DNA from: Hymenobacter rigui | Lineage (GTDB): Bacteria > Bacteroidota > Bacteroidia > Cytophagales > Hymenobacteraceae | Reading direction: 5' to 3' | DNA: 64,000 nt | NCBI RefSeq assembly: GCF_003944715.1 | Contig: NZ_RWIT01000005.1 | Location: forward strand, 310,001 to 374,000 | In this document: positions 42,644-48,915 of the stretch, piece after piece | Position numbering within the stretch: position 1 is the stretch's first letter | Layout: the number at the start of each line of letters is the position of its first letter | Notes under the pieces: generated by a model | What the model was told of the DNA's origin: nothing | Database searches by the model: none | What the model saw: only the letters and a program-made list of their open reading frames with translations | Program-made: the position numbers and the translations under genes

Positions 42644-45043
42644 ATGAAACGCCGCCCTCTTTACCGTCTGCTGGCGGGCCTTGGCCTGTTGCTGCTGCTT
42701 TTGCTGGGGCTGGATTGGGCGTTTCCGGTGCCCCCGGCCCCGCAGTACTCGCCCCTGGTGCTGGCCGCCGACGGCTCGGTGCTGCACGCCTACCTCAACC
42801 CCACCCAGAAGTGGCGGATGAAAACCGAGCTGCGCGAGATTACGCCGGTGCTGCGGGCCGCCATCATTGAGAAAGAGGACCGGTGGTTTCGGTGGCATTT
42901 CGGCGTGAATCCCGTGGCCCTGGTGCAGGCGGCCGGGCGCAATCTGTTCGGCACGGGGCGCACCACCGGGGCCAGCACCATTACCATGCAGGTGGCCCGG
43001 CTGCTGGAACCCAAGGAGCGCACGTTGCCCAATAAGCTGCTGGAAATGGTCCGGGCGGTGCAGCTGGAGGCCCACTACAACAAGGACGAGATTCTGCAGC
43101 TGTACCTGAACCTGGTACCCTACGGCGGCAACGTGGAAGGCGTGAAATCGGCCGCTTTGCTCTATTTCCAGCAAACGCCCGACTACCTCTCCCTGGCCCA
43201 GACGGTAACGCTGGCCATCATCCCGAACCGGCCGCGGGGGCTGGTGCTGGGCAAGAACAACGCGGCCGTGCTCCGGGAGCGGAACCGGTGGCTGCGGCGC
43301 TTCGGGGCGGCCGGGCTGTTTCCGGCGCAGGACGTGGCCGATGCCCTGCTGGAACCCCTGAACGTGCAGCGCCACCCCGCCCCCACCCTGGCCCCGCACC
43401 TTTCGCGGCGGCTGGTGCGGCAGTTTCCGCACACAGCCATCATCCGCAGCAGCCTGCAGCGCAGCAAGCAAAGCAAGGCCGAAGACCTCACGCTGGGCTA
43501 CGTGCGCCGCCTGCGCGAGCTGGGCATCACGCAGGCGGCCGTGCTGGTGGTCAACAACCGCACCCGGCAGGTGGAAGCCTACGTGGGCTCAGCCGATTTC
43601 CGGGACTTCGGGAGCCAGGGCCAGAACGACGGCGTGGTGGCGGTCCGCTCGCCGGGCAGCACGCTCAAGCCGTTTCTCTATGCGCTGGCTATGGACCAAG
43701 GCCTCGTTACGCCTAAGCTGCTGCTGCCCGACGTACCCACTAACTTCCAGGGCTACCGCCCCGAGAACTTCGACAAGCACTGCAACGGCGAAGTAACGCT
43801 GGAGCGCGCCTTGGCCTACTCGCTCAACATCCCGGCCGTGCGCGTGCTCAACCAGCTCGGCGTGCCCGCCTTCACCGAGAAGCTGCAGCAGGCCGGCTTC
43901 CAGAATGTGAAGCGCAACCGCCCCCAGTTGGGCCTGAGCAGTATTCTGGGTGGTTGCGGGGCATCGTTGGAGGAACTAACAAATCTGTATGTGACGCTGG
44001 CTGATGCCGGGCAGTACGCGCCGCTGCGCTACCGGGCACCCCACCCCCCGGTCCCCTCCCCTCCGGGAGAGGCGGAGCCTGACGAAGACGTTGAACGAAA
44101 TTATTCGGCTCCCCCTCTCCCGGAGGGGGGTGGGGTGCTCCGGCAGAACGGCAACCAGCTCATCTCCCCCGCCGCCGCCTTTCTCACCACCGACATCCTC
44201 AGCCAGCTCACCCGGCCCGATTTGCCATTGGGCGCGGCCAGCAGCATGCGCCTGCCCAAAGTGGCCTGGAAAACCGGCACCAGCTACGGCCGCCGCGACG
44301 CCTGGAGCATTGGCTACAACCGGCAGTACACCATCGGCGTGTGGCTGGGCAACTTCAGCGGCCAGGGCAGCCCGGCTCTGACTGGAGCCGACGTAGCCAC
44401 GCCTCTGCTGTTCGACCTCTTCAACGCCTTGGCCTACAACTCGCCCAACGACTGGTTTGCGCCCCCGGTGGCGCTGGATTTCCGGCTGGTGTGTACCGAA
44501 AGCGGGCTGGTGCCGGGTGAAAACTGCCCCCATCAGGTAATCGACTACTTCTTGCCCAACGTGAGCAGCGGGCAGCGCTGCCAGCACCAGCGTGAGGTGC
44601 TGGTATCGGCCGATGGCGGGTTTGCCTACTGCCGGGCATGCGCACCAGCGGCCGGCTACCGGCGCGAGCTATACCCCAACCTGCTGCCCGAGGTGGCGGC
44701 CTACAAGGAGGCCCAGGGCATTCCGTACCGCCGGCTGCCGCCCCACAACCCGCAGTGCCAGCTGGTGCGCGGCGGTCCGGAAAAGGCCCCCAGCATCACC
44801 TCGCCCACCGCCAACACCGAGTACGTGCTCAACGCCCACGAGCAGCAGCAGCTCCTGCTGAGCTGCACCACCGACAACGAGGTACGCCAAGTGCACTGGT
44901 ACGTGAACGACCAATTTCTGCGCACGGCCCGGGCCACCGAGCGGGTCTTTTTCCGGCCCCAGCCCGGCCCCCTCAAAATCTCCTGCGCCGACGACCACGG
45001 CCGCAACACCGACGTGCTGGTGACGGTGACGGAGCTGGAATAA
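42644..45043 (+). CDS. pbpC: Penicillin-binding protein 1C
   Basis: A bifunctional peptidoglycan glycosyltransferase/transpeptidase, 799 residues. One TM segment (LLAGLGLLLLLLLGLDWAF) is followed by the GT51 domain with catalytic Glu78 (EKEDRWFRWHFGVNP) and TTGASTITMQVARLLEP. The transpeptidase has Ser339 in RSPGSTLKPFLYAL, SLN (AYSLNIPAVRVLNQLG) and KTG (VAWKTGTSYGRRDAW). The C-terminal PBP1C domain starts near GENCPHQVIDYFLP and ends in a beta domain. Between SxN and KTG, residues about 465-500 are encoded by a palindromic repeat and read Pro/Gly/Glu-rich, an insertion not in the family. Upstream lie Uma2 (divergent) and A2M. Confidence 0.96.
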   Translation: MKRRPLYRLLAGLGLLLLLLLGLDWAFPVPPAPQYSPLVLAADGSVLHAYLNPTQKWRMKTELREITPVLRAAIIEKEDRWFRWHFGVNPVALVQAAGRNLFGTGRTTGASTITMQVARLLEPKERTLPNKLLEMVRAVQLEAHYNKDEILQLYLNLVPYGGNVEGVKSAALLYFQQTPDYLSLAQTVTLAIIPNRPRGLVLGKNNAAVLRERNRWLRRFGAAGLFPAQDVADALLEPLNVQRHPAPTLAPHLSRRLVRQFPHTAIIRSSLQRSKQSKAEDLTLGYVRRLRELGITQAAVLVVNNRTRQVEAYVGSADFRDFGSQGQNDGVVAVRSPGSTLKPFLYALAMDQGLVTPKLLLPDVPTNFQGYRPENFDKHCNGEVTLERALAYSLNIPAVRVLNQLGVPAFTEKLQQAGFQNVKRNRPQLGLSSILGGCGASLEELTNLYVTLADAGQYAPLRYRAPHPPVPSPPGEAEPDEDVERNYSAPPLPEGGGVLRQNGNQLISPAAAFLTTDILSQLTRPDLPLGAASSMRLPKVAWKTGTSYGRRDAWSIGYNRQYTIGVWLGNFSGQGSPALTGADVATPLLFDLFNALAYNSPNDWFAPPVALDFRLVCTESGLVPGENCPHQVIDYFLPNVSSGQRCQHQREVLVSADGGFAYCRACAPAAGYRRELYPNLLPEVAAYKEAQGIPYRRLPPHNPQCQLVRGGPEKAPSITSPTANTEYVLNAHEQQQLLLSCTTDNEVRQVHWYVNDQFLRTARATERVFFRPQPGPLKISCADDHGRNTDVLVTVTELE
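44036..44141. repeat. In-frame palindromic repeat inside pbpC
   Basis: GCACCCCACCCCCC and CTCCGGGAGAGGCGGAGCC on the left are mirrored by GGCTCCCCCTCTCCCGGAG and GGGGGGTGGGGTGC on the right; the left arm has an extra 11 bp. The reverse complement of the left arm is nearly identical to the right end of the intergenic repeat at 48745-48915 (both contain TCGTCAGGCTCC and a GGGGGGTG run). The reading frame stays open through it. Confidence 0.88.
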
Positions 45044-48732: not shown

Positions 48733-48744
48733 CCTCACGCTCCG

Positions 48745-48915
48745 GCCCCCTCTCCTCAATAGAGGGGATGCGTTCAACGATTTCTCGTTGGCCGTTGCTT
48801 TTCGGCTTAGCTGAACTAGCAAAATCAAGTTCAAAACATCCATCGACGAAATACCCTCCTGCCAATCGTCAGGCTCCCCCTCTCCCCGAGGAGAGGGGGC
48901 TGGGGGGTGAGGTCC
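48745..48915. repeat. CCCTCTCC/GGAGAGGG palindromic repeat within the RND operon
   Basis: CCCCCTCTCCTC on the left and GAGGAGAGGGGGC on the right are inverted, about 130 bp apart, with GTTCAACGATTTC in between. The right end (TCGTCAGGCTCC...GGGGGGTGAGG) is almost the same as the reverse complement of the repeat inside pbpC at 44036-44141. It separates adaptor and pump genes that are otherwise expected to be tightly linked. Confidence 0.85.

Follow-up and report, generated by a model that had tools for sequence, protein, structure and literature searches.

An in-frame palindromic element in pbpC of Hymenobacter rigui and its probable link to DUF559 nuclease genes

The pbpC gene of Hymenobacter rigui, which encodes penicillin-binding protein 1C (PBP1C), holds a palindromic element within its reading frame that is related to an intergenic repeat in the same 64,000-nucleotide stretch of contig NZ_RWIT01000005.1 (positions 310,001 to 374,000, referred to as the window). 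Very probably, the insert belongs to a repeat that is linked to genes encoding a DUF559 domain. With some reserve, we read it as a non-autonomous, MITE-like copy of an element whose full-length copies would carry DUF559 between two inverted G/C-rich units.

Results

Palindromic units in the window

A protein family scan of the pbpC frame matched Transgly, Transpeptidase, and BiPBP_C, and the insert lies between two conserved motifs that we take to be SxN and KTG (Table 1). The gene was open, and the two arms of the insert (44053-44079 and 44107-44133) were 89% complementary, as expected from an initial sequence-only reading that had placed an in-frame palindrome in the transpeptidase half of PBP1C. 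That reading had also matched the palindrome to the intergenic repeat as its reverse complement, and the match held, with 88% complementarity between 44038-44085 and 48866-48913. The insert was an imperfect dimer, two inverted units about a spacer, rather than one simple palindrome, and two of the three coding-strand frames were open across it.

Table 1. Features of pbpC, its insert, and the intergenic copy, in window positions
Feature	Position	Strand	Remarks
pbpC, penicillin-binding protein 1C, ORF holding the insert	42644..45043	+	open, 799 aa; family matches
In-frame palindromic element in pbpC	44036..44138	.	two units in inverted orientation with a spacer between; about residues 465-499; bounds are the best by eye
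Left triplex-type unit of PBP1C insert, imperfect	44042..44072	-	triplex finder; DUF559-flank profile, left arm E 3.7e-4
27-nt spacer of PBP1C insert	44080..44106	.	inverted relative to the element of G012 (L112)
Right triplex-type unit of PBP1C insert, shortened	44111..44138	+	triplex finder; unreported by the DUF559-flank profile
Intergenic copy of the element, longer interior	48733..48915	.	occupies the whole gap between two ORFs
Left triplex-type unit, intergenic copy	48735..48768	-	triplex finder
Right triplex-type unit, intergenic copy	48876..48912	+	triplex finder; best preserved of the window's four units

Class II G/C-rich intrastrand triplex motifs are the repeats known as BoxC, PIT, or TM_ECO (Holder et al. 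2015, PMC4666352). The window units have the class II layout, with stems in the order pyrimidine, purine, and G-rich third strand, separated by short loops. A triplex finder, in which the rules given in the available part of PMC4666352 were loosened (at most 1 and 2 mismatches, loops of at most 8 and 7 nt), returned four units in the 64-kb window; the PBP1C insert and the intergenic repeat accounted for two each. By eye, none of the window units matched the strict TM_ECO consensus CCCTCNCCCN3-6GGGNGAGGGN3GGGNGAGGG, and a search with a simple 18-base pattern, 3 mismatches being tolerated, gave 4 matches in the window versus 3.44 expected, which is not above chance.

The insert across PBP1C genes of the genus

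A PBP1C match was found in 118 of 120 Hymenobacter genomes. From these, 110 genes were taken (eight were left out) together with two from Adhaeribacter, and three genes (L175 of G072, L176 of G118, and L177 of G071) were dropped because stops or frame shifts had made them short, which left a set of 109. A loop with an internal inverted repeat (score of at least 13) was present in 41/109 genes versus 0/593 windows of equal length elsewhere in the genes; together with the four finder units in 64 kb, this ruled out a chance palindrome. A unit profile built from the arms flanking DUF559 genes alone matched the PBP1C loop in 36/109 genes and nothing in the remainder of the genes. The loop measured 46 residues in the window gene versus 15 in the nearest relative searched (L141 of G074), which is 97% identical over 750 columns and lacks the insert. 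The two Adhaeribacter outgroups also had loops of 15 residues, and 40/109 genes had loops of at most 24 residues and no unit. An insertion would have been doubtful if all PBP1C orthologues carried the segment; the alignment showed that they do not.

On a quick tree of the 109 genes, from which the loop was left out, the G/C insert showed at least 24 state changes, always in the same loop; this tree does not distinguish gain from loss, and 37 of its 106 inner branches are weak. Both ends were found by the profile in 25 complete elements, the window element standing outside this set because its right unit was missed. The offset of the 25 from a conserved Leu ranged from 5 to 41 nt (eight started at offset 5), five were read in phase 1 and twenty in phase 2, and the spacers varied. 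Two or three coding-strand frames were open in 12 of them and one frame in 13. The notion of arms open in every frame was rejected, the consensus arm being open in 3/3 frames one way, 2/3 the other way, and 2/3 with a TGACG end. Compared with the spacer of L112 (G012), the window spacer agreed at 25/27 nt when inverted versus 12/27 when direct. As one spacer is the reverse complement of the other, the piece has either flipped or been inserted in the opposite orientation, and the frame is open in both. When the 25 junction pairs were inspected by eye, no target duplication could be made out. The element of L149 appeared longer and seemingly double, and the loops of L147 and L135 appeared remnant-like (both by eye). 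As a DNA query against a plasmid collection, the PBP1C insert matched one Hymenobacter record.

In 12 other PBP1C genes, assigned by eye, the loop was occupied by a second, AT-rich family of inverted-repeat inserts (L139, L189, L191-L193, L196, L197, L199, L203, L204, L211, and L213), with peptides such as NEELRMKNEE...NSSFLIPHSSLI and at least 10 state changes on the same quick tree. The loops of L205 and L215 had inverted repeats that resembled neither family, the peptide of L205 including NTQYPTPNTKNQ.

An insert ancestral to the genus, lost many times or spread by ordinary gene recombination with no need for recent mobility, is very improbable in our judgment. The tree would not tell such losses from gains, and the remnants in L135 and L147 suggest that losses do occur, but the differences in offset, phase, and spacer among the 25 complete inserts, the unrelated AT-rich inserts in the same loop, and the short loops of both outgroups argue against a single inherited segment.

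The loop in a protein model

PBP1C was modeled with AlphaFold2 from 56 sequences, the window gene and 55 of 80 loci. The mean pLDDT was 83.2; residues 469-500 fell below 50, and the only other segment to do so was 706-713. The insert, whose place in the fold the sequence-only reading had proposed to model, thus falls in a predicted disordered loop. The catalytic motif residues S339, K342, S393, N395, and K543-G545 were invariant in all 56 sequences, and the insert peptide would be a tolerated passenger. It is scarcely credible that the peptide has been selected for a role in PBP1C, with the DNA palindrome incidental to it. Inserts that preserve the frame in the genes counted, and that are widespread across the genus, would suit such a role; however, the peptide changes with phase and orientation, many genes do with a short loop that has no unit, and the pLDDT of the segment is low. 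An intein was also rejected, no Hint-type family being found in PBP1C or in the 10 DUF559-containing proteins scanned.

Copies elsewhere in the genome

The H. rigui genome (G000) gave 45 matches to the intergenic copy, which were merged by hand into 18 loci. In-frame copies were present in a 1009-aa ORF resembling AAA-type ATPases and in an ORF resembling polynucleotide kinase-phosphatases; another copy lay close to where a PurN-like ORF ends, and a further one between a PurL-like C-terminus and DUF559 (all four likenesses by eye). The genome-wide search called for at the outset thus located several copies within ORFs. Taken with the absence of the insert from G074, its two reading phases, and the spacer inverted relative to G012, these copies support, from sequence comparison, the original suggestion of a mobile palindrome retained in frame in PBP1C.

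Three DUF559 genes were found in this genome. One was bracketed by a pair of the units described here, and the other two by palindromes of a second family, similar in layout and with 72 matches in the genome. This second dispersed family, CCCCTCCTTGGAAAGGAGGGG...GGGGTGG, lies on both sides of the DUF559 gene in L222 (G000:C31:273065, with 71 further matches). At two of the three Y1_Tnp loci of the same genome, other inverted repeats were present.

DUF559 flanks in Hymenobacter

DUF559 was detected in 103/120 Hymenobacter genomes. A bracketing inverted repeat (score of at least 15) was found at 31 of the first 32 DUF559 loci versus 0/520 random cores, the sole exception (L233) being cut by a contig end, and at 17/19 loci of a second batch; the loci sampled were the best-scoring ones and are not independent, both for that reason and because several share one site, at the PurL-like C-terminus. 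The triplex finder was run on 50 of these loci, with L233 left out. Units were present on both flanks of 47, on one flank of 2, and on neither flank of 1, compared with 0, 9, and 511 of the 520 random cores. The orientation of the nearest units at the 47 two-flank loci was mixed (-/+ in 26, +/- in 7, same strand in 14). An earlier hairpin detector gave a weaker but similar result, with both flanks positive at 38/50 loci and at least one flank at 11/16 loci of the set from other phyla described below.

Because the random cores came from around pbpC and were largely coding, gene-matched controls were added. No unit was found on any flank of 26 HNH loci (30 loci, 4 too short) or of 31 Y1_Tnp loci (32 loci, 1 too short). 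A bracketing inverted repeat of some kind was present at 22/31 Y1_Tnp loci versus 1/26 HNH loci; the Y1 transposase genes (L225, L226, and L359-L387) were often bracketed by inverted repeats of another kind. Each of the two enzyme families, DUF559 and Y1_Tnp, is thus associated with palindromes of its own in this genus.

Matches to a strict Hymenobacter pattern that included the third stem numbered 948, in 98/120 genomes, and the backwards pattern gave 0 in each. In the triplex finder, the third stem was set at G of at least 4 in the genus and plasmid-locus analyses and at least 3 or at least 4 for other Bacteroidota. Units occurred in 88/103 genomes with DUF559 versus 10/17 in which DUF559 was not detected (Fisher p 0.016), and a rank test of unit counts between the two groups gave p 0.078. 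A strict requirement of DUF559 for units was not supported, given those 10 genomes. The PBP1C insert of L117 likewise occurs in a genome (G026) in which no DUF559 was detected.

One alternative is that DUF559 genes are passengers, caught in or between pre-existing unit pairs, and that the palindromes owe their spread to a different enzyme or to host repair. We consider it unlikely, though it deserves serious weight. The units far outnumber DUF559 genes, both across the 120 genomes and in H. rigui (45 and 72 matches versus 3 genes), and they occur in genomes with no DUF559 found, as a passenger would predict; yet an excess of non-autonomous over autonomous copies is equally expected of a MITE-like family, and HNH and Y1_Tnp genes, with an equal chance of landing between units, have none on their flanks. 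The link between DUF559 and the units is drawn from sequence comparison.

DUF559 loci beyond the genus

A draw of Bacteroidota genomes contained DUF559 in 170/296. Twenty-eight new, best-scoring DUF559 loci were taken from other Bacteroidota, of which 24 were long enough; both flanks had units at 18 (17 at the stricter setting), one flank at 5 (6), and none at 1, compared with 11/240 one-sided control windows. A clean bracketing inverted pair was found at 11/24. From 42 DUF559 records in the plasmid collection, 16 were selected to cover a range of groups (alpha, beta, and gamma proteobacteria, Deinococcus, and cyanobacteria). At least one flank had a unit at 13/16 and both flanks at 5/16, compared with 8/144 one-sided control windows, and a bracketing inverted repeat with a score of at least 15 was found at 9/16.

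In E. coli K-12 strain RV308 (L299), ycjD, which encodes DUF559, ends at 1446, and a BoxC-type unit lies at 1614-1647; its 34 bases are identical to the opening of entries 9, 16, 19, and 22 in the available part of the table in PMC4666352. After sapF, the E. coli strains compared have either ycjD and the BoxC unit (L299) or efflux genes (L297, L298, and L300). A simple empty site was not found at ycjD; the three strains examined that lack ycjD carried the efflux genes after sapF.

Several DUF559 loci lay inside host genes. The arrangement palindrome-DUF559-palindrome was in frame in leucyl-tRNA synthetase (LeuRS; L303 and L306), with host sequence on both sides; in L303 the host parts next to it match 1h3n at residues 236 and 240. 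It was likewise in frame in MetH (L311), where the adjoining host parts match 9ssp at residues 754 and 765, as well as in HsdR (L308 and L310), HsdM (L321), a Type ISP enzyme (L301), and a UvrD-type helicase (L266), and it lay inside an AddB-like gene (L269, partly by eye). Among the best-scoring loci from other Bacteroidota, elements often lay in restriction-modification genes (L301, L302, L308, L310, and L321 by Pfam; L304, L314, and L322 by eye). Assembly errors are possible in single cases of this kind; such an error is disfavored for LeuRS because the same arrangement was found in two genera.

The DUF559 domain

DUF559 belongs to the PD-(D/E)XK superfamily, according to the available part of PMC12907096. 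An alignment of 44 rows had 11 invariant columns, E28, D57, E68, and D70 among them, and the sequence matched the solved structure PDB 3hrl with an E-value of 5.4e-20.

Discussion

The flanking of DUF559 genes by the units leads us to lean towards DUF559 as the enzyme that moves the repeat. In single-stranded DNA, the units would fold into hairpins or triplexes, and DUF559 would recognise and nick the unit or its target, with a cut at or near the folded unit. Repair or strand transfer may then insert, remove, or flip the piece. If the insertion point is a surface loop and the frame stays open, translation of the host protein would continue through the piece.

On a broader scale, the chances seem about even that these elements form a previously unrecognised, cross-phylum mobile class made of paired BoxC-type palindromes with a Vsr-like DUF559 as the mobility enzyme, carried now or formerly. 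Such elements would use no transposase and no splicing and would persist in essential genes by being translated through, the PBP1C insert representing the miniature and the LeuRS and MetH insertions of other Bacteroidota the complete form. If true, this would explain in-frame inserts in conserved enzymes, ranging from about 30 residues to a whole nuclease domain, as well as the repeated filling of one PBP1C loop. A nuclease family that is flanked by units in several phyla, when gene-matched controls from one genus have none, offers a testable candidate for the spread of BoxC/PIT repeats.

The available part of PMC12907096 describes VsrA, a DUF559 protein of Caulobacter crescentus needed for the SOS response of cells without a cytosine methyltransferase, a finding that we count in favor of the proposed reading. 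VsrA and PDB 3hrl share the DUF559 domain of the PD-(D/E)XK superfamily with the proteins studied here; VsrA is read there as a mismatch-repair enzyme, unlike the mobility role proposed here, and the string 'palindrom' is absent from the text of that paper. Legionella segments that contain both a transposase and DUF559 have been described as potential recombination hotspots, which the authors call unconfirmed (PMC12308824, available part).

Dispersed palindromes have been associated with enzymes before. In the REP-RAYT system, a dispersed palindrome brackets a tyrosine transposase (Y1_Tnp) gene. The present elements are alike in that a dispersed palindrome brackets an enzyme gene and unlike in the enzyme family, and the absence of triplex units from all 31 Y1_Tnp loci gives no support to RAYT as the partner of the PBP1C-type repeat. 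As in MITEs, the inverted ends of the insert are common to a longer, enzyme-carrying copy, given that the DUF559-flank profile matched 36/109 PBP1C loops; the role of the enzyme is putative.

Palindromes within genes are themselves known. Di Nocera et al. (2013, PMC3733652) reported palindromes inside genes and CGTC repeats that are not associated with transposase genes; DUF559 is not treated in the available part of that paper. As described there, a CGTC REP has a stem of 8-9 bp, A-T pairs in the first and second positions, a CGTC-type tag, and a CCA-like tail. Membership of our repeat in this family was rejected because the stem rule fails by eye; the inner end does have a CGTC run, and the outer end has CCTC. 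Like the Rickettsia palindromic elements and the intragenic REPs of the available part of PMC3733652, the present repeat consists of short palindromic dimers in frame in unrelated genes, including repair genes. The sequence-only reading had been reminded of the Rickettsia elements, and the resemblance stands for behavior, an in-frame palindrome that is missing from a close orthologue; it is claimed for that only, and the Rickettsia elements and intragenic REPs are taken to be other sequences.

In layout, the repeat resembles the BoxC/PIT repeats, which have been known since the 1990s, mark variable loci, and form triplexes in vitro in the case of the E. coli motif (PMC4666352, available part). 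The words 'endonuclease', 'Vsr', and 'DUF' are absent from the text of PMC4666352, and no report linking DUF559 to BoxC/PIT-type repeats was found in the open-licence literature searched. Both repeats are multicopy, often occur as inverted pairs, and are built of a pyrimidine stem, a loop, a purine stem, a loop, and a G-rich third stem. According to the available part of Holder et al., the E. coli copies are always intergenic and mobility genes were never found nearby, whereas the repeat described here also occupies coding positions and is linked to a nuclease gene. The repeat class is thus already known; here it stands in a coding position, and its nuclease partner is what is new.
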